The notes below the pieces were generated by a model, which had not been told where the DNA came from, did no database searches, and saw nothing but the letters and a program-made list of their open reading frames with translations. The position numbers were made by a program, and so were the translations under genes. Below, piece after piece: positions 1,807 to 42,322 of a stretch of DNA of 42,341 nucleotides (the stretch's first letter is position 1; the number at the start of each line of letters is the position of its first letter). The DNA is from a virus. Location: IMG/VR virus record IMGVR_UViG_3300006871_000013, positions 1-42,341 of that record; one strand, given 5' to 3'.

Positions 1807-2466
1807 CTAAAGAGACTCGCTTGCTGCGAACTCAAAGGACAACGCTTCTTGCTGGAGGCGTTCTGCCGCGATTTCGCAGTATTTCTCCTCGATTTCTATG
1901 CCGATCGCTTTGCGTCCAAGCCGCTTAGCCGCCACGAGTGTCGTGCCACTGCCCATGAACGGATCGAGAACGTCTCCGAGCGGAGCTTTAGCTATCAGGT
2001 CGATCATTAATGACAACGGTTTTTCCGTAGGATGGTCACGTTGCACGAAATTAGGTGAGATTGCGTTGTAGGCGAGCACTGATGACCCTCGATGTCCAGA
2101 AAAACCTTGACCGATAACATAAATATCCTCGTGATTTGGTCGCCAAGGAAAGGACAGGTCGCCCATGCCTACATGCGGACCTTTGTCCCAAATCAGCAAT
2201 GCTCTAATGTTTTTGGGTCGCGCAATTTTCCATGAACCGAACACGATGGCAGGACGGTCGCCCCACCATACAAGAACATGATCTCGAAGCACGGTCGAGT
2301 TATCTCCAAACACGCGACACTCGCCGAGAAATCCATCCATTCCTGAATGCCAATTAAGACCGTAAGGCGGATCTGTCACTAATACATCGGCCGACAACAC
2401 CGGCAGAATCTCCCGGCAATCTCCGCAGTAGATCGTGATGCCGGATTGTTCGTAATACGGCCTCAC
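1807..2466 (-). CDS. DNA adenine/cytosine (amino) methyltransferase, copy 2
   Basis: A 219-residue beta-class amino-methyltransferase. DPPYGL is at residues 32-37, HPTEKP at 145-150 and DPFMGSG at 168-174. The GTG at 2464-2466 is chosen over the upstream ATG because GGAGG lies five bases before it and because the reading then begins RPYYEQSG, matching the paralogue's KPYYEQSG. GTG overlaps the TGA of the tiny membrane ORF (2463-2579). The N- and C-terminal ends closely match copy 1, while residues about 38-140 do not, so the two probably recognise different sites. Likely role: protection of phage DNA from restriction, or epigenetic marking. Confidence 0.93.
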   Translation of the reverse strand: MRPYYEQSGITIYCGDCREILPVLSADVLVTDPPYGLNWHSGMDGFLGECRVFGDNSTVLRDHVLVWWGDRPAIVFGSWKIARPKNIRALLIWDKGPHVGMGDLSFPWRPNHEDIYVIGQGFSGHRGSSVLAYNAISPNFVQRDHPTEKPLSLMIDLIAKAPLGDVLDPFMGSGTTLVAAKRLGRKAIGIEIEEKYCEIAAERLQQEALSFEFAASESL

Positions 2467-3483: not shown

Positions 3484-3500
3484 GCAGATACACTCCTTGT

Positions 3501-3527
3501 TTACTGAATTTCTACGAATTGAGCCAT
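3501..3527 (-). CDS. Possible 8-codon minigene
   Basis: Between the 132- and 202-residue genes an ATG preceded by AGGAG (nine bases) opens an 8-codon frame (MAQFVEIQ) closed by TAA. The next real gene also begins ATGGCTCAA (MAQ), 18 bases after this stop. Either it is a translated minigene that relays ribosomes or a remnant of the original start left when the 202-residue gene was inserted or duplicated. Confidence 0.35.
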   Translation of the reverse strand: MAQFVEIQ

Positions 3528-3926
3528 CTAGGACGGCTCCTGCGGCGGCGGGGTGGCCTGTGAATCCGTCTGATATTTCGCGAGCAATTCGCGGCAGCGC
3601 ACGATGAAATCCGCCCGTTCCATGCGATGCTCCCCGCGCGTTCCATCACGGCTTAACTTTGACCGCTGCGTTTTCGAGCAGAGCAAAAGCAGATAGCCTA
3701 GGAGTTCGCCAGCTTCGTCCGGTTCTCCAGGTGTCGGATTCGCCCAGTGGTCGCCAGCATGAGCAGATTCGATGCAGAACTTTACGCTGTCGTCGTCAAT
3801 GTTCTGGTCATCTAGGACGATATGAAGCACGCCGCCGACGCCGTTCTGAGGGAAGCCGTAGAACGCATCGATGAGCGGCGCAAGTTCCGGAACCGTCGGC
3901 CGGAGCTTCCGCGCAGTTTCATTCAT
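3528..3926 (-). CDS. Hypothetical protein, 132 aa, with linker tail
   Basis: Not recognised. A soluble protein whose C-terminus is TPPPQEPS; the codons for QE form AGGAG, the Shine-Dalgarno sequence of the ATG downstream. It starts with an 8-base overlap inside the end of the 378-residue gene. The proline-rich tail is of the same family as the tails at 5052, 6559, 6771, 6965 and 7453, although the bodies of those proteins are unrelated. Confidence 0.7.
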   Translation of the reverse strand: MNETARKLRPTVPELAPLIDAFYGFPQNGVGGVLHIVLDDQNIDDDSVKFCIESAHAGDHWANPTPGEPDEAGELLGYLLLLCSKTQRSKLSRDGTRGEHRMERADFIVRCRELLAKYQTDSQATPPPQEPS

Positions 3927-5055
3927 ATCGGCTCACTTCTCCTGCGGCGTGGCGGGGCGCGGCCGGTAAGGGCATCCAATGGGTCGGGTATGACCACGTC
4001 GGTTTGCCATCCTTGGCGAATACCCACAATGATTGCTCACCCCAACCTGCGGGATCGGGATGGCGCCAGCAATCCCAGAGCATGATCGTCCACCAATGAT
4101 CGCCCGCCTTCACCCCGCGCTGTGCGTCAGGTGGCGATCCCGAGTGCAAGCCGAATCCGAGGACGGCACTTCCATCTTTCGGCGCCGTCTCAATCGGTTG
4201 CCAGCCCTGCGGCGTGGCGGGCAGGACGCTAGCGGCCTGCAATGCTTCGATCGTCAACTGATCGCGCGATGGCGGAAACTCCACGGCTTCACGTTCTGCA
4301 CGACTCACGCATGAGCATCCGACGCCTTTCGCGCCTCTCGGATACTTCGCGCGGTCGGTGTTACAGACCAGATCGTGACACTGCGTGTGATCGAACTGCG
4401 CGGGCGGGACGCGGGTGGCTCGCAACATGCCAAGCAGGAAGGCTTCGATCCGTGCGGCGTGCCCTACCTCGAACGTATTCCCGATCTTCCCAAACATCGC
4501 CATTTCGAAGTCGTTCCAGACTTCCAGTGGAACACGATCAACCACGTCTTTTTCGCTCCTAAACGTCGAGCACGTCAGACCGCCATCCTTGCTCGCGACG
4601 TATCCACTATTCGGATGATCGGCTGCGGGCGCACCACAATTCGAGCAGCGCGACGGTTCCTGCGCGGGCGGGACGCGGGCGGCGTCTCCCCGTGCCAACT
4701 TTTGACCGAGTTCGTAAGCGCGATTCATCTCGTCGGCGAAGTGTTGCGCGTCTTCCTCGTCAGCCCACGACTGACTCGACGCCACGTCATCAGGTCCGAG
4801 GACACCCCACGTTTTCCCGTGCGAACATTTCGAGCAGCCGTCGTCATCAACTTCAACTGTGAATACTGGTTGGGCCTGCGGGCCTGCGGCTCCCCCAGCG
4901 AGAAAGGCGACGGCTCGCGCAAATCCGCAGTCCTCGTCATGGTCTTTCGCAGGATTGCCTTCAGTTCGCAGTTTGCCCGAATCGCAGAACGCACAGCCAT
5001 ACGGATGCTCGACGATGGCGCGCAAAATCTCGACGGCGGTATCCTCTCGCGTCAT
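3919..5055 (-). CDS. Multi-module cysteine-rich protein with C-terminal DUF551 domain
   Basis: A 378-residue mosaic. In order: a CAFC...C module (about 20-45), a CSKC module (about 73-80), a linker RVPPAQEPS (about 127-135), a zinc-ribbon-like CSNCG...C module (about 137-165), a helical segment, a second RVPPAQ linker, another Cys-rich module, and a C-terminal DUF551 domain (WQPIETAPKDG through THWMPLP, about 283-366). DUF551 is common in phage and prophage accessory regions but its function is not known. The DNA of the internal linkers (4396-4415 and 4660-4679) is repeated exactly for 20 bases and resembles the inter-gene tails of this operon, suggesting that formerly separate genes fused. 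ATG overlaps the preceding TGA, with AGGAG eight bases upstream. Confidence 0.8.
   Translation of the reverse strand: MTREDTAVEILRAIVEHPYGCAFCDSGKLRTEGNPAKDHDEDCGFARAVAFLAGGAAGPQAQPVFTVEVDDDGCSKCSHGKTWGVLGPDDVASSQSWADEEDAQHFADEMNRAYELGQKLARGDAARVPPAQEPSRCSNCGAPAADHPNSGYVASKDGGLTCSTFRSEKDVVDRVPLEVWNDFEMAMFGKIGNTFEVGHAARIEAFLLGMLRATRVPPAQFDHTQCHDLVCNTDRAKYPRGAKGVGCSCVSRAEREAVEFPPSRDQLTIEALQAASVLPATPQGWQPIETAPKDGSAVLGFGLHSGSPPDAQRGVKAGDHWWTIMLWDCWRHPDPAGWGEQSLWVFAKDGKPTWSYPTHWMPLPAAPRHAAGEVSRYE
3941..3956 (-). repeat. 16-bp linker repeat at the end of the 378-residue gene
   Basis: Exact match to 4206-4221 inside the same gene, just before the DUF551 domain. This copy contains AGGAG upstream of the 132-residue gene. 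Confidence 0.8.
4396..4415 (-). repeat. 20-bp linker repeat inside the 378-residue gene, copy A
   Basis: Exact match to 4660-4679. Encodes RVPPAQ between two internal modules of the fused protein. Confidence 0.88.
4660..4679 (-). repeat. 20-bp linker repeat inside the 378-residue gene, copy B
   Basis: Exact match to 4396-4415. Here the continuation is RVPPAQEPS, which resembles the terminal TPPPQEPS of the 132-residue protein. Confidence 0.88.
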
Positions 5056-5228
5056 TCGGCCTTCTCCTGTGGCGGCCCTGCGGATCGGGGCGCGACCGGA
5101 TTGTCAAGCAACGAATCCCAAACGTCGATTTCATCCTGCTTACAGCCCCAAAACAGCTGGCCCGTCTTGCCATTCTTCCGGCTGACCATCGGGCCGCCGC
5201 ACTCAGGACATTTCACGTCTTCGATCAT
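5052..5228 (-). CDS. C4-type zinc-finger-like protein, 58 aa
   Basis: The first 30 residues resemble the topoisomerase I C-terminal zinc finger: KCPECGGPMVSRK then GQLFWGC. The second cysteine pair of the canonical finger is incomplete, so it is half of that motif or a diverged version. It ends AGPPQEKAE, with QE codons forming AGGAG for the 378-residue gene. ATG overlaps the preceding TGA. A nucleic-acid-binding role is likely but unproven. Confidence 0.7.
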   Translation of the reverse strand: MIEDVKCPECGGPMVSRKNGKTGQLFWGCKQDEIDVWDSLLDNPVAPRSAGPPQEKAE

Positions 5229-5413
5229 TTGCTCACCACTCGGGCGAGCGCGCATCGATCGCACTCGCACTTCTCGGGCCATTTCCGTGGTGGTTTGCGG
5301 CCGTCGAACTCAGCGCCGCACTGCGGGCAACCGTTTGAATCAAACCGCAGCCGATGCCCACATTCGTAACATCGTGACCATAGCCACGACCCTTTTTCTT
5401 TTCGATCAGTCAT
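5225..5413 (-). CDS. Zinc-ribbon protein, 62 aa
   Basis: Contains CYECGH (about 15-20) and CPQCG (29-33), a classic zinc ribbon spaced by a short hairpin, plus a third CECDRC element (49-54). Probably a small nucleic-acid- or protein-binding zinc protein. Its own ribosome site is weak. GGAG upstream is better placed for an overlapping 7-codon ORF, so translation may depend on reinitiation. Its TGA overlaps the next ATG. Confidence 0.72.
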   Translation of the reverse strand: MTDRKEKGSWLWSRCYECGHRLRFDSNGCPQCGAEFDGRKPPRKWPEKCECDRCALARVVSK

Positions 5414-5476
5414 GGGCGAGGTCGCTCATCGGGCACGCTCCGCCACAGCCACGAGTTCAGAGGCGTGCGGTTTCAT
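5406..5476 (-). other. Two nested minigenes (16 and 7 codons) in the gap before 5413
   Basis: After the gene ending at 5473, an ATG overlapping its TGA opens a 16-codon frame (MKPHASELVAVAERAR, 5426-5476). Its TGA overlaps another ATG opening a 7-codon frame (MSDLAHD, 5406-5429), whose stop lies five bases beyond the ATG of the zinc-ribbon gene. GGAG in the first minigene sits eight bases from the second ATG. The unbroken chain of stop-start overlaps suggests ribosome relay, or that a former gene here was deleted leaving its ends. Confidence 0.35.
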
Positions 5477-5868
5477 CGCTCGGCCGCCTCCGAGGGCGCA
5501 CCAACGTCAACTTTCAATAGATCGGGCCGTAATTCCTTGCAGCGAAACCACGCCACGCCGAACGGCACCTTGAATTGATCGGCGATCTGCGTGACTCGCA
5601 TCATAGGCCACGGCATCAGAACCGCGCCGAACTTCTGCGCCCACGCATCGCCCGCGAACTTCCCACGCCGTTCCGACTTCAGCCCCTTCAGAAACTTGGT
5701 GAAGTCCGCATCAGTCATCGCGGCGACAACCGGCTGCGCATCGAGCGCCAGCGGCGCGTAAGCCGTGACGAGTTCACGGAGTTCAGCCAGCGTCGAGCAG
5801 TCCGTCAGCGCCTTCGCGTAGTCGCGATCCTGACTGCCGCTCATCGCGCGACTCATCTGAAAACTCAT
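5473..5868 (-). CDS. Hypothetical protein, 131 aa, possible HTH, PSEA-type tail
   Basis: Mostly helical. The segment MRVTQIADQFKVPFGVAWFR (about 90-109) resembles a helix-turn-helix, so a DNA-binding role is possible. It ends GAPSEAAER, where the SEA codons supply GGAGG for the following start. ATG overlaps the preceding TGA. The last 19 bases of the tail module (5482-5500) are repeated exactly at 5874-5892 in the upstream gene. Confidence 0.7.
   Translation of the reverse strand: MSFQMSRAMSGSQDRDYAKALTDCSTLAELRELVTAYAPLALDAQPVVAAMTDADFTKFLKGLKSERRGKFAGDAWAQKFGAVLMPWPMMRVTQIADQFKVPFGVAWFRCKELRPDLLKVDVGAPSEAAER
5482..5500 (-). repeat. 19-bp linker repeat (PSEA class), copy A
   Basis: Exact match to 5874-5892. 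A 13-base part also occurs at 6144-6156. It encodes APSEAA and provides GGAGG. Confidence 0.88.
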
Positions 5869-6137
5869 TTCGGGGCCGCCTCCGAGGGCGCAGCCGCCCC
5901 CACCGCAGAATCTTCGTCTTCAGGATGTGCCCATTCAGCGGGGCCGATCCATCCGATGTGCTCGAACTTCACGCGGTAGTAGGCATCGCCGCCCTTATCG
6001 CCCTGTCCTGGCACGCGCACGTAGCCGATGACGCCCCAGTCGCGCACTTCCGTCACGACGAGAAAGCAGGCACCGAACACAGAATCGTGTGCTGGATCTA
6101 TTTGCACGACATCGTGAACGCGAACGACTTGTTTCAC
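5865..6137 (-). CDS. Hypothetical beta-rich protein, 90 aa
   Basis: GTG start overlapping the preceding TGA, with GGAGG seven bases upstream. The body (VVRVHDVVQIDP, FLVVTEVRDWGVIGYVRVP) looks like a small beta-barrel of the kind seen in KOW/SH3-like phage proteins, and it ends with an acidic stretch before the APSEAAPK tail. Function unknown. Confidence 0.7.
   Translation of the reverse strand: MKQVVRVHDVVQIDPAHDSVFGACFLVVTEVRDWGVIGYVRVPGQGDKGGDAYYRVKFEHIGWIGPAEWAHPEDEDSAVGAAAPSEAAPK
5874..5892 (-). repeat. 19-bp linker repeat (PSEA class), copy B
   Basis: Exact match to 5482-5500, at the 3' end of the 90-residue gene. Confidence 0.88.
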
Positions 6138-6559
6138 GGCTGGGCCTCCGAGGGCGGGATCGCCGCCACCTGAAAGGCTTTAGGCACGAACGATCCTTCA
6201 CGTAATTGCTGCAATGTCACCGTGAATCGCATCTTGCAAGACGTGCAGAGAACGAGCCGCCGCCCGCGCGGGAGTTTTTCAATGATCGCACCTTGCGTTC
6301 GCAGTCCAGTTCGCCCGTCGATCTGCGGCTGTTCTTCGGTCGTTGTGGAGACGCGGCCAGCGATCTTGTGACTCGTGCAGATTTTCAGAAATCGACGATT
6401 GCAAGGACAGCGGAGTTTCGTTCGTTCCCACGTCGTTTTGTCAGTGCCGCTCCGATTCGGCCATATCGGATATTCGCCCGGTTGTAGCGTCTCAGAATGA
6501 CGCAGATTTACCCGGCTACGAATCCCTGTCGCCGTTGGACGATCCAAAGGCAAATTCAT
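6134..6559 (-). CDS. Cysteine-containing protein, 141 aa, with linker tail
   Basis: Starts at ATG 6557-6559, which shares one base with the preceding TAA and has AGGAG eight bases upstream. Cysteine motifs CPCNRRFLKIC (about 50-60) and LCTSC (about 104-108) suggest one zinc site. The C-terminus is VAAIPPSEAQP. The first seven residues of this tail match VAAIPPSPQE in the upstream gene while the last part belongs to the PSEA class, so it is a chimera of two linker classes. Function unknown. Confidence 0.72.
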   Translation of the reverse strand: MNLPLDRPTATGIRSRVNLRHSETLQPGEYPIWPNRSGTDKTTWERTKLRCPCNRRFLKICTSHKIAGRVSTTTEEQPQIDGRTGLRTQGAIIEKLPRGRRLVLCTSCKMRFTVTLQQLREGSFVPKAFQVAAIPPSEAQP

Positions 6560-6587
6560 TAGTCGGTCTCCTGCTCCTGCGGGGAGG
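6558..6587 (-). repeat. 30-bp linker repeat, copy A
   Basis: Exact 30-base match to 6770-6799. It encodes the end of SPQEQETD plus the stop of the 69-residue gene and contains AGGAG for the next start. Confidence 0.9.
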
Positions 6588-6768
6588 GCGGGATCGCGGC
6601 CACATTCACTGCACGTCTTTCCAAATAGCGGCGTCGCTTCGCTAATGCTTTCTCGCCACGACGTTCTTCGGCTTCTAGCGCCTCCCATACTGCCACTGCG
6701 AGATCGAACGGGAGAGGTTGCCGACGATCCAGATACAGCTTGATTCGTTCGCGCATTTTAGGAGTCAC
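6559..6768 (-). CDS. Small helical protein, 69 aa, with linker tail
   Basis: GTG start at 6766-6768, two bases after the previous TAA, with AGGAG eleven bases upstream. The body is charged and helical (KMRERIKLYLDRR, EALEAEERRGEKALAKRRR). It ends AAIPPSPQEQETD, identical in its last eight residues to the tail of the upstream 65-residue protein. The underlying 30 bases (6558-6587) are an exact repeat of 6770-6799. Confidence 0.65.
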   Translation of the reverse strand: MTPKMRERIKLYLDRRQPLPFDLAVAVWEALEAEERRGEKALAKRRRYLERRAVNVAAIPPSPQEQETD

Positions 6769-6769
6769 G

Positions 6770-6799
6770 ATTAGTCGGTCTCCTGCTCCTGCGGGGAGG
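6770..6799 (-). repeat. 30-bp linker repeat, copy B
   Basis: Exact match to 6558-6587, at the 3' end of the 65-residue gene. The genes upstream of the two copies are unrelated. Confidence 0.9.
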
Positions 6800-6968
6800 C
6801 AAACGGATTCGCGTATGGAATTTCTCGCCAACGCTGAAGCTGACAGCAACAGCAAATGTCCTGCACCTTGTAAACGACGGACGCGAAACCTTGTGGCCCA
6901 TATCGGAAATTCTCCCGCCACAAGTGCTGTCCCATCCGACAGACGAGTCGATGCAGAACCGGAATCAC
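6771..6968 (-). CDS. Small cysteine-rich protein, 65 aa, with linker tail
   Basis: GTG start overlapping the TGA of the 163-residue gene, with AGGAG eight bases upstream. Contains an unusual CCCC run (about residues 41-44). It ends ASPQEQETD, encoded by the 30-base repeat shared with 6558-6587. Not recognised. Confidence 0.65.
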   Translation of the reverse strand: MIPVLHRLVCRMGQHLWRENFRYGPQGFASVVYKVQDICCCCQLQRWREIPYANPFASPQEQETD

Positions 6969-7456
6969 TTGTTGGGCTCCTGCGGGGAGGGCGGATTGGC
7001 CCATTCGTCCCCTGACAAGCCGTTCTCGGTCCAGTAGCCGAGGAACGCCACGACGAGATTCTGAAGCAGGGCATCAGGATCTAGGTCTGGTTCCGAGCCT
7101 TGCATTGTGGCGGATCGATAGGCGTATCGCCCCGCCGCGCGAATGATGTCGGCGAACTCCTGACGAGAGAATCGCCGCGCAATGAACGGTTCGCCGGGGA
7201 TCTGTTGCACGATGGAAATGTGACCGGCTCCGATCCGCAGGTTCATCGGCGGCGGTTCGTAATGCTCCGTCTTGACCGTGCTCCAATGCCCCGCCGGCAG
7301 TGGCATCGACATCGTCGCGAAGCCTGAGCCATCAGGCAACAGCGCGCATTCTTGGATGGTTCCACCGACATCATCAGCCAGTCGTTGAACAACAGACGGT
7401 GGATCGATCGGCGTGATGCCAGCCGCTTGATCGGATTCTGAGATGCGCTCGTTCAT
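6965..7456 (-). CDS. Hypothetical protein, 163 aa, with linker tail
   Basis: Not recognised. ATG overlaps the preceding TGA and AGGAG lies eight bases upstream inside the previous gene's QE codons. The sequence is a mixed alpha/beta soluble protein and ends NPPSPQEPNK, the same class of tail as its neighbours. Position in the early operon suggests a host-takeover or accessory role. Confidence 0.72.
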   Translation of the reverse strand: MNERISESDQAAGITPIDPPSVVQRLADDVGGTIQECALLPDGSGFATMSMPLPAGHWSTVKTEHYEPPPMNLRIGAGHISIVQQIPGEPFIARRFSRQEFADIIRAAGRYAYRSATMQGSEPDLDPDALLQNLVVAFLGYWTENGLSGDEWANPPSPQEPNK

Positions 7457-7848
7457 GTGATTTTCTCCTGCGGGGAGGGCGGGATCGCCCCGCGCAACAC
7501 TCGAAGCTCTTTGTCGGCTGCTTGCATGAAGTCATTCTCGGCGCTGAACATGAACGTCCCGTCCGCAGCATTGAACAGCGCGAGCGGCCAGCCGCTGCGT
7601 TCTATGTAGACGTGGAATTGAGGAATCTTCGGTGCGTTCGGCGGTTGCCAGTGCTCAGACTTACCGCCGTTCAGGCAGATCCGCCACGTCGGTTCGCTCT
7701 GAAAGCGATAGTCCCACTCGCCAGCCGGAATGCGTCCGAGCGCCTCTGCGATCTCGGTGCACGCCAGCATCGCCGCCATAATTCCATCGCGTTCCACTTT
7801 CTCGCCAACTGTTCTCGGTTCGCGTGCCTCGCGCTCGACTGGAGTCAT
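7453..7848 (-). CDS. Hypothetical protein, 131 aa, with linker tail
   Basis: Not recognised. Starts with ATG overlapping the HNH gene stop, with GAGG upstream. It ends GAIPPSPQEKIT; the last 24 bases of its linker (7465-7488) recur exactly at 6574-6597. The body is a tryptophan-containing alpha/beta protein. Confidence 0.72.
   Translation of the reverse strand: MTPVEREAREPRTVGEKVERDGIMAAMLACTEIAEALGRIPAGEWDYRFQSEPTWRICLNGGKSEHWQPPNAPKIPQFHVYIERSGWPLALFNAADGTFMFSAENDFMQAADKELRVLRGAIPPSPQEKIT
7465..7488 (-). repeat. 24-bp linker repeat (IPPSPQE class)
   Basis: Exact 24-base match to 6574-6597. A 20-base form also occurs at 6976-6995. Each sits at a gene end and carries the ribosome site of the next gene. 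Confidence 0.88.
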
Positions 7849-8195
7849 AGCCTGAACCTCAAGCGATCGACATCGCCAGTTACGATAATTTCCTGATCCG
7901 CATCTCCTGAAATCTGGATGATGCCGGCGTGTCGCAGCGCATGATGATCTTTACACAGCCAGACGCAGTTCGATGTGAGCCAGCGTCGCCGTTTTGATTG
8001 CGAGCGCGGCACGATGTGATGGAGCTCGCTCGCGTATTCGGCACATCCTGGAATCCGACACTTCCCATGATCGCGTTTGCGTGTGATTTCGCGGCACGCC
8101 CTCTCCTGTTTCGCGTCCCACTTCTGCCGGCGCTTTTTCAGCACCGCTCGGATTTCCGGTTTGGGATGCGCGAGACGGGTATCGGTCATGTCCAT
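7845..8195 (-). CDS. HNH endonuclease
   Basis: A 116-residue HNH nuclease. CRIPGC (46-51), ELHHIVPRS (58-65), N76 and CKDHH (81-85) give the beta-beta-alpha-metal fold with a paired-cysteine zinc site, and the N-terminal third is strongly basic. Such proteins act in phage as packaging-associated nickases or homing endonucleases. Here it sits far from TerL, on the other strand and in the early operon, so a homing or host-DNA role is as likely as packaging. A second ATG two codons in is an alternative start. Confidence 0.92.
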   Translation of the reverse strand: MDMTDTRLAHPKPEIRAVLKKRRQKWDAKQERACREITRKRDHGKCRIPGCAEYASELHHIVPRSQSKRRRWLTSNCVWLCKDHHALRHAGIIQISGDADQEIIVTGDVDRLRFRL

Positions 8196-8202
8196 TAGCG
8201 AA

Positions 8203-8502
8203 TTACTGGATCTGCTTTGAGTCAGTCGGAGCCGCGATAGGCGTCAGTGCGAGAATCCGATCCTCGGTGCCTTCGACGCGCTTGCCGTAACGGTGCTGGA
8301 GCTCCACCATGCGAATCAGCTTGCCCGCGACGTTGCAGGAGGCGTTCGCGCGTTGCGGCTCGATCCGGCCGGCGATGGTGTCGGCGAGGAGCGCGGCCAT
8401 GACTCGCGAAAAATCGGCGCCGGTTGTGATGCCGCTGTCGGCGAGTCGGGCTGATGTAGGAACTTTTTGATCTCCGCCAGCGTTCTTTTTGCGTCGCGCC
8501 AT
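8203..8502 (-). CDS. Small phage protein with ANASCN...AGKL motif, 99 aa
   Basis: Strong ribosome site (AGGAG, eight bases before ATG). The first 20 residues are basic, followed by helices with ANASCNVAGKLIRMVELQHRYG (about 54-75), reminiscent of small conserved phage/prophage hypotheticals; this is recognition by eye. It could be a small terminase-like or DNA-associated helical protein, but TerL is on the opposite strand 3 kb away. It overlaps the preceding HTH gene by 187 bases in another frame. Confidence 0.72.
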   Translation of the reverse strand: MARRKKNAGGDQKVPTSARLADSGITTGADFSRVMAALLADTIAGRIEPQRANASCNVAGKLIRMVELQHRYGKRVEGTEDRILALTPIAAPTDSKQIQ

Positions 8503-8921
8503 GTGAATGTCTCCTCTGAATTCCAGCGATACAAAACCATGCCCTTATGCACGAGACGAATCGGCTGCTCGAGCACGCGCGACCAGTGAGCACCCTCTTG
8601 GAGAGCACCAGCGACAGATCGCAACAGCCGAAATGTGACCCATCCGATATCGCGCTGCGTGCCAGGCTTCTGCGATTGCAGCCAGAACACGCGGCCCGCG
8701 AATACTCCGCGCCGACTTCCGAACCACGCCGCACCGTTGATGCTCGCACGCACAATGTCGCCATCCATCGCTAGAACCGCGCAGAGCATGGAGATCGTGC
8801 CTTTTGAGACGCCTATCGCATCCGCAATCATCTGCCCGGTCATTGGATGCGTCGTGCGATTCAAAGCTTTGACAATGCGCGCTCTGTGCGGCGATCGAGC
8901 GCCGCGCCAACCACGAGCCAC
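8316..8921 (-). CDS. Predicted winged-helix/HTH protein, 201 aa
   Basis: GTG start at 8919-8921, two bases after the zinc-protein stop, with a GGAAG-like ribosome site. Residues about 12-60 (ARIVKALNRTTHPMTGQM, then IADAIGVSKGTISMLCAVL) form a helix-turn-helix with the recognition helix around GVSKGTISML, followed by a wing-like segment. A DNA-binding regulator is likely. The last about 60 residues lie in the 187-base overlap with the next gene and are low-complexity (S, P, R), so the useful protein may end near residue 140. The longer frame from 9140 overlaps two other genes and is rejected. Confidence 0.65.
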   Translation of the reverse strand: MARGWRGARSPHRARIVKALNRTTHPMTGQMIADAIGVSKGTISMLCAVLAMDGDIVRASINGAAWFGSRRGVFAGRVFWLQSQKPGTQRDIGWVTFRLLRSVAGALQEGAHWSRVLEQPIRLVHKGMVLYRWNSEETFTWRDAKRTLAEIKKFLHQPDSPTAASQPAPIFRESWPRSSPTPSPAGSSRNARTPPATSRAS

Positions 8922-8923
8922 TT

Positions 8924-9106
8924 TTACTTCCGCCCTTTCACGGTGCCCTCTTGGGCGGCATCGCAGGCTTCTCGATCGGCACAATAGTAAAACTCCACCA
9001 TCATCGTGCCGTCCTTGACGAGTTGCCATTCGGAGGATTGCTCGATCGGAATATCTCGGCCACAACGACCGCAGTTGACGATGCAGCCCTCCCAACGAAT
9101 CCTCAT
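8924..9106 (-). CDS. Zinc-ribbon-like protein, 60 aa, with DAAQEGT tail
   Basis: ATG overlaps the previous TGA with GAGG six bases upstream. CGRCG (about 12-16) and CADREAC (about 42-48) form a likely four-cysteine zinc site. It ends DAAQEGTVKGRK; the upstream gene ends DAAQEGTTRGRK although the two bodies are unrelated. Confidence 0.7.
   Translation of the reverse strand: MRIRWEGCIVNCGRCGRDIPIEQSSEWQLVKDGTMMVEFYYCADREACDAAQEGTVKGRK
8946..8963 (-). repeat. 18-bp linker repeat (DAAQEG class), copy A
   Basis: Exact match to 9125-9142; encodes DAAQEG at the end of the 60-residue gene. Confidence 0.88.
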
Positions 9107-9369
9107 TTGCGGCCTCGCGTTGTTCCCTCTTGGGCGGCATCGATCAGTTCGCCTTCATCCGCTCGCGATTTGCTTTTCTTCTTTTCAGAATTCCGCCGTG
9201 CGCGCGCCAGTGTGTCATCGTGACTCCAATTCTTCGGCTGCGCGAGCCCTATAGTCAGCGTCGTGCCTTCGCGCAACTCGTAATGGAGCCAGCCTTTCGA
9301 TGTGACTTGTCCTTTATTGACGCGATGCCACTTGTCGCCGAATTTGACGGCGTATTTCGCGTTGCTCAT
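9103..9369 (-). CDS. Small basic protein, 88 aa, with DAAQEGT tail
   Basis: Start chosen at ATG 9367-9369 because it overlaps the TGA of the ribbon-helix-helix gene and has GAGG four bases upstream. The first 50 residues look like a small beta domain (KYAVKFGDKWHRVNKG); the middle is highly charged and basic (RARRNSEKKKSKSR). It may bind nucleic acid. It ends with the DAAQEGT tail. Confidence 0.7.
   Translation of the reverse strand: MSNAKYAVKFGDKWHRVNKGQVTSKGWLHYELREGTTLTIGLAQPKNWSHDDTLARARRNSEKKKSKSRADEGELIDAAQEGTTRGRK
9125..9142 (-). repeat. 18-bp linker repeat (DAAQEG class), copy B
   Basis: Exact match to 8946-8963; encodes DAAQEG at the end of the 88-residue gene. Confidence 0.88.
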
Positions 9370-9853: not shown

Positions 9854-10723
9854 TTGGCAGGCTATACCAAGCTCTTTCAGTCGATTCTCGCCAGCACCAT
9901 CTGGAGCGCGGACGACAAAACCCGCCTCGTCTGGATCACCTTGATGGCGATGGCGAACCAATACGGTATCGCTGAGGGCTCGATTCCAGGTTTAGCCGTG
10001 TTCGCGCGGGTCTCCATTGACGATTGCGAACATGCGCTAAATGAGTTACTTGCACCCGATCCGTATTCGCGGTCGAAAGAGTTTGAAGGCCGACGCATCG
10101 AAACGGTCGAAGGCGGCTGGAAACTCCTCAATCACCGCAAATACCGCGACAAAATGAACGCGGACGAGCGGCGCGAATATCTCCGCCAGAAGCAGGCTGA
10201 GCAGCGTGCCAAACGCAAGCGCGTCAACAAATCAGTCAACACTCGTCAACAAATGTCAACAGTGTCAACACATACAGAAGCAGAAGCAGAAGCAGAAGCA
10301 TCTAGATCTCGGTATTTGATAGATTCTGATCAATTGAAAGATCAGGATAATCAGCAGCAGGAGAGTGCGGCTGCGCCTGCTGTTGACGGCAACGGAAATG
10401 GCAACGGAGCTAAGAAGAAACCCGCCTTCGCCGGTCAACGCCTCGTGATCTACGATTGGCAACTCGCGGAGCTTGAAGGCTGGCTCGGCGAATACGCCCC
10501 GCAGTTCAATCTCCTTGACTGGTTTTTCCGCCTCGATGCCCACGCCGAACTCCACAAAATCATCATTCCGAAGCGCGACGGCGGCGCCTGGTTGCAAAAG
10601 GAATTCATCGCGGAAGTGCAACGCTGCGGGATTCCGTTACAGCTCGCATCGGCTGAACAATCCAAAACACCAAACGCCGCCGAGCGACGGACGCTCGAGA
10701 TGGCGAGACGCTGGGGGCGATGA
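9854..10723 (+). CDS. Phage replication initiator / replisome-organiser-like protein
   Basis: A 289-residue protein if the TTG at 9854 is the start (AAGG nine bases upstream). That start gives MAGYTKLFQSILASTIW, matching the usual N-terminus of phage winged-helix replication proteins. The N-terminal domain (1-100) has the family pattern TRLVWITLMAMANQYG, SIPGLA, APDPYSRS, EGRRIE and GGWKLLNHRKYR. Residues 100-200 are a charged, low-complexity hinge with an EAEAEAEA run, and the C-terminal domain (about 195-289) is predicted to be helical. By family knowledge such proteins bind origin DNA and recruit host helicase. The hinge codons contain the iterons, as in the lambda O gene. No helicase or polymerase is encoded nearby, so host replication machinery is presumably used. 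Confidence 0.82.
   Translation: MAGYTKLFQSILASTIWSADDKTRLVWITLMAMANQYGIAEGSIPGLAVFARVSIDDCEHALNELLAPDPYSRSKEFEGRRIETVEGGWKLLNHRKYRDKMNADERREYLRQKQAEQRAKRKRVNKSVNTRQQMSTVSTHTEAEAEAEASRSRYLIDSDQLKDQDNQQQESAAAPAVDGNGNGNGAKKKPAFAGQRLVIYDWQLAELEGWLGEYAPQFNLLDWFFRLDAHAELHKIIIPKRDGGAWLQKEFIAEVQRCGIPLQLASAEQSKTPNAAERRTLEMARRWGR
10223..10271 (+). repeat. Five iterons (GTCAACA) in the initiator gene, candidate replication origin
   Basis: GTCAACA occurs at 10223, 10235, 10245, 10255 and 10264, all in the same orientation, with centre-to-centre steps of 12, 10, 10 and 9 bases, i.e. about one helical turn. All five fall in codons 124-140 of the initiator, in its flexible hinge. Two inverted copies overlap the gene's promoter and another GTTGAC is at 10382-10387. 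Such a cluster is not expected by chance and matches initiator-binding iterons. Confidence 0.75.
10275..10300 (+). repeat. Tandem CAGAAG hexamers (about 4.3 copies)
   Basis: Four consecutive CAGAAG units immediately after the iterons encode the EAEAEAEA run. Because the unit is six bases, copy-number change would keep the reading frame. Confidence 0.8.
10298..10360 (+). other. AT-rich stretch beside the iterons, possible DNA-unwinding element
   Basis: Directly after the iterons and hexamers the sequence turns AT-rich relative to the surrounding coding DNA. It contains an inverted repeat CTGATC/GATCAG separated by eight bases. Iterons followed by an AT-rich block is the layout of iteron-type origins, including lambda ori. 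The assignment is inference from layout. Confidence 0.5.
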
Positions 10724-11010
10724 TGCGCGAATGGCGCCGTGTTCCCGCCGATACTCTATGCGGAAATTGTTCAAACACGATCCCGCAAGATGAACCCGCG
10801 ATCTACATCAAGCTCGAGAACGTGAAACGTGAACTGGTGCGCTGTCAATCGTGCATCGGTGTGGCGCCGCCTGATCTGCCGCCGCGCATTCGTCCGCAGT
10901 CCACCACGAAGCCGATGCAGAAGTTGAAACGCACGGCGCTCGGTATGACGCGCGAACGTGTCGAATCAGAACTCGCGGCTACTGCGCGCATGTTGGGGGA
11001 ACGTGAATGA
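10720..11010 (+). CDS. Zinc-ribbon protein, 96 aa
   Basis: ATG overlaps the initiator's TGA, with GGGGG just upstream. CGNC (about 14-17) and CQSC (about 42-45) are separated by a beta-rich segment, a typical two-knuckle zinc site. The C-terminal half is basic and helical. Probably nucleic-acid-binding; its place after the initiator suggests a role in replication or early regulation. Confidence 0.75.
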   Translation: MMREWRRVPADTLCGNCSNTIPQDEPAIYIKLENVKRELVRCQSCIGVAPPDLPPRIRPQSTTKPMQKLKRTALGMTRERVESELAATARMLGERE

Positions 11011-11186
11011 ATCGCTCTGATGTGCTGCGTTTTTTGGCCGAACGAATCTTGCAACAGTGGTGGGGCTGCGAGAGCGTGCGTGTATGGGACGGTGCTGATT
11101 GGGCAGAAGCGCGCGATCGAAGGCGCGATGGATTTCGCGCAGACATCGACATCGCCGATGCGCGCCGCATTCTGAGTTTCGAATGA
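11007..11186 (+). CDS. Hypothetical protein, 59 aa
   Basis: Short ATG ORF coupled on both sides (ATGA overlap with the 96-residue gene, and its TGA overlaps the next ATG). Begins NRSDVLRFLAERILQQWWG and has an acidic, helical C-terminus. Not recognised; support is the unbroken coupling. Confidence 0.6.
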   Translation: MNRSDVLRFLAERILQQWWGCESVRVWDGADWAEARDRRRDGFRADIDIADARRILSFE

Positions 11187-41554: not shown

Positions 41555-41870
41555 CGGCCGCTCGGCGATTCATCCTGACAGTGCGTTCGGGCAAAAGATT
41601 GCGGCGCAGAATCATCGCAACAAAGCCTACGATGAGCGCGATGAAGTCATCAGCGCGCTCTCAAAGCAGTTCACCGCTCACTTAATGCGCGATGAATCCC
41701 GCATGAACTGGAAAGATCTCGTGTGCGTGCATCTCCCAACTGGCAACGTCGCATGGCGCATCTCAGCCGAGAGCCGGCGCAAGCACTTCGCACACCTTCA
41801 CGAAGTCGCCAATCATTTCCAGCGCACGACTCATGCGGAGCGCACAGACAGATTGTTGACGCTCAAGTAA
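41541..41870 (+). CDS. Hypothetical protein, 109 aa, last plus-strand gene
   Basis: ATG at 41541 inside the end of the previous gene. Helical and polar; contains HLMRDESRMNWKDLVCVHLP and a histidine-rich C-terminus. Its last 40 bases overlap the end of the convergent RuvC-like gene. Not recognised. Confidence 0.65.
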   Translation: MASVDGRSAIHPDSAFGQKIAAQNHRNKAYDERDEVISALSKQFTAHLMRDESRMNWKDLVCVHLPTGNVAWRISAESRRKHFAHLHEVANHFQRTTHAERTDRLLTLK

Positions 41871-42322
41871 GTCATCACGAGCGCGAGTGCGCTCCATTCA
41901 TCGCCGCTGATTCCATAGAGCGGACCTGGCTGTTTCTTCGTGCCGATCGCACGCTGTCGCGTTGAGCCGAACAGATCGAGCACCGCTTGTCGCACGTTGG
42001 CGTCCTTCGCTCGAGAGTCATGACATAGCGCCATCTTGACTTCAAGCCGTTTCATGCGCTGCCATTCGCCTGGGCCTTCATCTATCCATGTCTGCGCGAA
42101 TCGTCCTGACCAAAACACAGTCTCGAATACCTCAGCGCCGACAGCCATACCGTAGCTAGCGACCTGCTCAATGAGCAGCAACGCGCTCGACTCATGGCGA
42201 GTGAGCCGCATCAACATATCTGCATTCGCGTATATCTCATGCTCAATGATGCGCTGACCATCCCACACCACGAGTGCGCTCTGCTCGCATCCTGGGTCTA
42301 TGGCGTAGATTCGGCTAATCAT
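41831..42322 (-). CDS. RuvC-like Holliday junction resolvase
   Basis: A 163-residue RNase H-fold nuclease. AIDPG with D9 at the N-terminus, IEQ with E52, KDANVR with D107 (112 residues C-terminal to the start of the fold's acidic set) and GDEWSALALV with D141/E142 give the four acidic residues expected for RuvC-type active sites. Length is close to RuvC (about 170). It probably resolves branched replication or recombination intermediates before packaging. GAGG lies nine bases before ATG. It is read toward the right arm and its end overlaps the last plus-strand gene by 40 bases. Confidence 0.87.
   Translation of the reverse strand: MISRIYAIDPGCEQSALVVWDGQRIIEHEIYANADMLMRLTRHESSALLLIEQVASYGMAVGAEVFETVFWSGRFAQTWIDEGPGEWQRMKRLEVKMALCHDSRAKDANVRQAVLDLFGSTRQRAIGTKKQPGPLYGISGDEWSALALVMTYLSVNNLSVRSA

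Follow-up and report, generated by a model that had tools for sequence, protein, structure and literature searches.

Repeated gene-end linkers, most of them overlapping a putative ribosome site of the next gene, in the left arm of a virus genome with a P22-like portal

The window, that is, the whole stretch of DNA analysed here, is a 42,341-base virus record (IMGVR_UViG_3300006871_000013) that codes for a P22-like portal (profile match to PF16510, E 1.8e-97), a P22-like coat protein and a Terminase_3 large subunit. Its left arm, which runs on the minus strand from about 9.5 kb to 0.1 kb, is made up of small genes that overlap one another and seldom match known families; among GTDB genomes, neither the terminase nor the body of gene 6965 (the gene without its terminal tail) gave an alignment. 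Two DNA N6/N4 methyltransferase genes (94-783 and 1807-2466, minus strand), with about 38% mutual identity, are the sole clear paralogues among the left-arm genes compared, and both are without a linker of the kind described below. At the opposite end of the record, 41831-42322 (minus strand) encodes a RuvC-like Holliday junction resolvase (phrog_1770, 1e-17) that may take part in recombination.

Inspection of every left-arm gene end revealed repeated linkers at 12 of them. Four genes (7453, 6965, 6771 and 6559) terminate in class 1, GCGATCCCGCCCTCCCCGCAGGAG whole or in part; a short form with CAGGAG at its end closes three more (5052, 3919 and 3528), once in another reading frame; class 2, GCGCCCTCGGAGGCGG, is found in three genes, one of which carries a chimera with class 1; and class 3, GATGCCGCCCAAGAGGG, ends genes 9103 and 8924. 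Further copies lie at joints inside the open reading frame (ORF) 3919-5055. The features, all on the minus strand, are as follows.

9125-9142, minus strand: class 3 linker CGATGCCGCCCAAGAGGG, encoding DAAQEG, end of gene 9103-9369
8946-8963, minus strand: class 3 linker, DAAQEG, end of gene 8924-9106
7465-7488, minus strand: class 1 linker GCGATCCCGCCCTCCCCGCAGGAG, AIPPSPQE, end of gene 7453-7848, an exact repeat
6977-6994, minus strand: class 1 linker CCGCCCTCCCCGCAGGAG, NPPSPQE, end of gene 6965-7456
6770-6799, minus strand: class 1 linker of 30 nt, ASPQEQETD plus stop, end of gene 6771-6968
6558-6597, minus strand: class 1 linker, end of gene 6559-6768, with 30 nt equal to 6770-6799 and 24 nt equal to 7465-7488
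6144-6164, minus strand: chimeric linker, end of gene 6134-6559, sharing 15 nt with 7475-7489
5874-5892, minus strand: class 2 linker TGCGCCCTCGGAGGCGGCC, APSEAA, end of gene 5865-6137
5482-5500, minus strand: class 2 linker, APSEAA, end of gene 5473-5868
5064-5075, minus strand: short linker CCGCCACAGGAG, GPPQEKAE, end of gene 5052-5225
3919-5055, minus strand: fused ORF (378 aa) with three joints that resemble linkers and, at residues 284-364, a DUF551-like C-terminal module
4660-4679, minus strand: 20-nt linker CCCGCGTCCCGCCCGCGCAG, RVPPAQE, domain joint inside ORF 3919-5055
4396-4415, minus strand: the 20-nt linker again, RVPPAQF, 264 nt further down the gene
4206-4221, minus strand: 16-nt linker CCCGCCACGCCGCAGG, PATPQG, just ahead of the DUF551-like module
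3941-3956, minus strand: copy of the 16-nt linker, RHAAG, just past the DUF551-like module, in another frame
3537-3548, minus strand: short linker CCGCCGCAGGAG, PPPQEPS, end of gene 3528-3926

An earlier note on this DNA had described serial proline-rich tails containing PQE, and this description is borne out: the tails of genes 7453, 6965, 6771 and 6559 are PPSPQE or FASPQE followed by a few residues, genes 5052 and 3528 end in the shorter GPPQEKAE and TPPPQEPS, and the repeats it reported are exact (30 of 30 positions between 6558-6587 and 6770-6799, 24 of 24 between 6574-6597 and 7465-7488). The array extends beyond the gene ends listed there, which are real, to class 2 (6134, 5865 and 5473), class 3 (9103 and 8924), the other-frame copy that ends ORF 3919-5055 and the linkers at the internal domain joints of that ORF. 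Genes 5865 and 5473 both end in the class 2 sequence GCGCCCTCGGAGGCGGCC, and the linker of gene 6134 combines a 5′ part like class 1, GGCGATCCCGCCCTC, with a 3′ GGAGGC like class 2, the class 1 portion before GGAGGC reading GCGATCCCGCCCTC.

In 10 of the 12 linkers, AGGAG or GGAGG lies 7-12 nt ahead of an ATG or GTG start. Among the class 1 linkers, AGGAG precedes the ATG of gene 6965-7456 by 8 nt (linker of 7453), the GTG of 6771-6968 by 8 nt (linker of 6965), the GTG of 6559-6768 by 11 nt (linker of 6771) and the ATG of 6134-6559 by 8 nt (linker of 6559); GGAGG in the chimeric linker of 6134 is 7 nt before the GTG of 5865-6137, and in the linkers of 5865 and 5473 it is 10 nt before the ATG of 5473-5868 and of a 16-codon ORF, respectively. 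Further down the arm, the linker of 5052 places AGGAG 8 nt before the ATG of 3919-5055, and the linker at 3941-3956 runs on into AGGAG 12 nt before the ATG of 3528-3926. The spacing of about eight bases put forward in the earlier note thus describes class 1 and gene 5052 well, and fits gene 3528 only in part, its AGGAG being 9 nt from the start of an 8-codon ORF and the start of gene 2875 having an AAGGAG of its own. Very short ORFs are opened by two of the 10 coupled starts, those after 5473 and 3528; the latter ORF (3484-3527, minus strand) reads MAQFVEIQ, the next real gene, 2875, also begins MAQ, and the start looks like a leftover of a replaced gene. The AGGAG sites are probably in use. 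For an SD-hiding hairpin (CTCC/GGAG) that might serve as a coupling switch, SD being the Shine-Dalgarno sequence, the predicted pairing is partial and varies from junction to junction. In class 3, the corresponding GAGGG is at least 18 nt from the next start, too distant to be its ribosome site; therefore, a role as Shine-Dalgarno (SD) sequence is not the sole thing that makes a linker.

The repeats are not a product of chance. All eight pairs of exact direct repeats of at least 16 nt in the 42 kb fall at linker gene ends or at joints inside ORF 3919-5055, and 12 of the 105 pairs of gene ends share an exact match of at least 12 nt, compared with 0 in every one of 1000 sets of segments drawn at random from the interiors of the same genes. 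When up to 3 mismatches are allowed, 0.03 matches to the 18-nt core would be expected; the window contains 3 exact ones. Stripped of their tails, the bodies give no significant blastp match to one another, in agreement with the earlier description of them as unrelated; the most similar tails are carried by adjacent genes. The same synonymous codons are used in all copies, and the chance that two independent encodings agree, computed with the codon usage of the left arm, is 0.0003 for AIPPSPQE and 0.0007 for SPQEQETD. To judge from these sequences, the repeated unit is DNA rather than peptide.

The fused ORF brings the linkers into the interior of a coding sequence. The whole ORF matches phrog_924 (5.6e-5), and its C-terminal module resembles DUF551 (PF04448) with 11.1 bits and E 0.77, under the curated cut-off of 22. 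The two copies of the 16-nt linker that flank this module are 265 nt apart, a multiple of three plus one. A module of this kind in the related contig L034 has the end WMPLPAAPQESETP with CCGCAGGAG, in the plain frame.

Homologues of two of the linked genes are found without the linkers. The body of gene 6965 has homologues in seven IMG/VR contigs (L009-L015; 48-61% identity), all without the tail: these end in ANPPKG, EANPT, GLSRL, ANPDPVPPLFR, ANPDPVPPMFR and, twice, GTSKL, compared with ANPPSPQEPNK in the window. Likewise, the homologues of body 5865 in Pseudomonas phage PAE2 and Enterococcus phage UTI-EfS3 both stop where the window's tail begins. Thus, the outcome that the earlier note had named as speaking against its reading, namely, the same tail on homologous genes, did not occur. 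Searches of IMG/VR gave no relatives for genes 5865 and 7453, and searches of annotated phages gave no match for 5473 and 7453. The exact 24-mer linker has no match in IMG/VR beyond the window's own record, and the linker plus start codon gave 12 matches, mostly due to chance, two of them being ends of DUF551-type genes. Hence, the search for different bodies joined to an identical linker, suggested in the earlier note, succeeded with other linkers only.

Of the left-arm genes tested, just two have a counterpart in L006 (terminase 72%), the nearest relative with a left arm: gene 9366 and, over its N-terminal part, the HNH gene 7845. L006 has gene ends of its own, TPQEKK and TTPEEP, and an internal TPQETQ. 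Over their first ten codons (MDMTDTRLAH; window 8166-8195 and L006 7189-7218, both minus strand), the HNH genes of the window and L006 are near-identical; over the remainder, the proteins are only distantly alike. Another contig, L004, encodes a terminase identical to that of the window and also contains the class 3 pair of 9103/8924; it begins near window position 8618. As none of the close relatives examined spans the left arm from 3500 to 8600, no event of gain or loss was seen in this phage.

Such a difference is visible elsewhere. The end pattern of DUF551 modules, WMPLPxxPQE with CCNCAGGAG, has at least 120 matches in IMG/VR; in most copies, an ATG follows CAGGAG at 5-8 nt, and the genes that come next vary among the matches listed. 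Two enterobacterial prophage contigs, L074 and L017, have in common an upstream body (...NRRAAMLAAAPQ) and a downstream gene (MTIAIDRLKEVTR...). L074 has a DUF551 module (PF04448, E 5.3e-13) between the linkers GCAGCCGCCCCGCAG and GCCGGCCGCACCGCAG; in L017 (locus 10644-11117), this module is absent and a single hybrid linker is found instead, its left part equal to the first copy of L074 and its right part, GAGGGAAAATG, being the sequence that follows the second copy. On L017, the two blastn blocks between the contigs have 12 nt in common, and these lie at the linker. A hybrid linker of this kind is what linker exchange predicts, and the alignment shows two contigs that apparently differ through exchange at the PQE linker, readable as gain or as loss. 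Other prophage contigs have the same downstream gene joined to four unlike upstream contexts, exactly at GGAGG.

Among 145 contigs (1.72 Mb), a non-random sample fetched via relatives and DUF551 ends, a scan for repeats of at least 16 nt at two stop/start junctions with unlike upstream flanks was positive in 10, with the highest number, five pairs, in the window. In L062 (600-1260), three overlapping neighbours end in WTSEPRR, RKEPRR and WTSEPSR around GGAGCCG(C/A)GCCGATGA; in L038, GGCACGAGACGCAGGA occurs at two gene ends (HETQE) and in one untranslated copy before a start.

Taken together, these observations make it probable that the tails are gene-boundary linkers that recombine at the DNA level, allowing gain, loss or swap of gene bodies or modules. 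Each linker of about 15-30 bp would represent the last codons of one gene and, mostly, the SD sequence of the next. Recombination between linkers, either homologous or dependent on short homology, would copy and rejoin them, such that bodies or modules could be inserted, removed or swapped while the upstream gene retains a stop and the downstream gene a ribosome site. The C-terminal peptide would then be largely a by-product, and the built-in ribosome site would be the reason why such joints survive. The cassette exchange proposed in the earlier note holds up on paper, where all six possible class 1 exchanges, which would delete 191 to 891 nt, leave the PQE tail in frame, retain a stop and keep the next start coupled, and in the PQE exchange of the two prophage contigs; for this phage itself, we infer that cassettes turned over and that linker exchange built the array. 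Several points count against linker exchange: shared stretches of 15-30 bp are near or below the length that RecA needs, the proteins scanned yielded no annealing recombinase, class 3 linkers are too distant from the next start to supply its ribosome site, and the identical 24-mer was found in no other IMG/VR contig. A stronger version, in which the left arm is an actively reshuffled array where coding linkers with their own ribosome sites allow any cassette to be joined to any other and content varies among sibling phages of one population, appears doubtful to us.

Alternatively, the linkers could be regulatory repeats, that is, sites at translation starts to which a protein or RNA of phage or host binds, held alike by selection in the manner of the start-associated repeats known as SAS. 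Their location at starts, their restriction to the non-structural arm and some predicted pairing over the SD sequence are all in keeping with such a role. However, one arm contains several different linker sequences, two class 3 copies lie away from the SD sequence, further copies occupy domain joints within an ORF, and RNA folding gave no consistent hairpin over the SD sequence, so that we regard this explanation as unlikely. Convergent selection, with dense overlapping genes favouring QE or SEA codons because these spell AGGAG or GGAGG and with no exchange involved, would explain why DUF551 proteins from many phages retain PQE, CAGGAG lying some 8 nt ahead of next genes that vary among the matches listed. 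It is nonetheless quite unlikely for the window, where identity reaches 10-20 nt past the SD sequence with the same synonymous codons, class 3 repeats place no SD sequence and one linker is copied in another frame. Still more improbable is a functional C-terminal tag, with PPSPQE or APSEAA serving degradation, targeting or interaction: the tails are indeed in frame in every class 1, 2 and 3 copy, but the peptides are unlike between classes, and we reject the tag because homologous bodies lack the tail and the copy that ends ORF 3919-5055 is read in another frame. Finally, remnants of tandem gene duplication with bodies since diverged, which the placement of the most similar tails on neighbouring genes might suggest, are barely credible, given that the bodies show no residual similarity and that body 6965 has its own family, with members elsewhere.

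The linker-exchange reading bears on an old question, namely, whether the borders of mosaic modules arise through homologous exchange at short border sequences or through illegitimate joining followed by selection. The serial array, the hybrid linker, the other-frame copy and the L074/L017 pair provide actual examples of a border that falls on a coding ribosome site; the two prophage contigs make a good small system for linker exchange, and repeated gene ends are a signature open to automatic search.

The earlier note had considered such tails not to be a named feature, a view that goes too far in light of two precedents, the pair of genes 67/68 of Island3 and the SAS. Genes 67 and 68 of Island3 have 60 bp in common at their 3′ ends, for which recombination at boundary sequences has been invoked (Pope et al. 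2011, PMC3029335), and in its relative Brujita the extra gene is absent and one recombinant copy is present (PMC3029335); the shared ends RYQLAHVRxVAGRKxRRR are visible in the Island3 record. As in Island3, adjacent unrelated genes of the window have common 3′ DNA and C-terminal residues, so that the same DNA ends unrelated neighbours, as described for Island3 and lambdoid linkers; the accompanying sign, a relative that lacks the intervening module and has one recombinant copy, is seen outside the window, for the PQE linker in L074/L017. By contrast, Island3 has one pair with 60 bp and the window has 12 gene ends in several classes, with repeats that mostly include the SD sequence of the next gene and with intragenic copies. 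SAS and ESAS are named ribosome-site repeats of Cluster K mycobacteriophages and Cluster EF Microbacterium phages, with a single 13-bp SAS consensus just upstream of starts, half of them accompanied by inverted repeats (ESAS) (PMC3203893, PMC7302621). Like SAS, the window repeat lies at the ribosome site of non-structural genes from different families; unlike SAS, it is located inside the upstream coding sequence, measures 15-30 nt and comes in several classes, and the SAS consensus, GGGATAGGAGCCC in Cluster K and GGGAAAGGACCCC in Cluster EF, is not matched by the linkers CCCTCCCCGCAGGAG, CCCTCGGAGGC and GCCCAAGAGGG.

The boundary (linker) sequences of lambdoid phages, as cited in PMC3029335, are short, conserved stretches located where genes meet and are proposed to direct homologous exchange; they are described between phages at module borders, whereas the window linkers are serial within one genome. 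DUF551 (PF04448) forms C-terminal modules in enterobacterial phages, such as the mosaic Ea22 (PMC10834534), and offers a close parallel as a portable C-terminus that ends in PPQE or AAPQE, codons that are the SD sequence of varied next genes; ORF 3919-5055 itself has a DUF551-like module flanked by a linker, although most tailed genes of the window are without DUF551. The promoter early stem-loops (PeSLs) of T4-type phages are repeated intergenic cassettes that mediate shuffling (Arbiol 2010, as cited in PMC4503421) and contain promoters and stem-loops, as opposed to coding ends and ribosome sites in the window. Given the precedents of Island3 67/68, SAS and boundary sequences, the array is an extreme, unusually rich form of an already known idea, and its novelty lies in combining a long series, several classes plus a hybrid, a coding tail joined with a ribosome site, and linkers at the joints of a fused protein.
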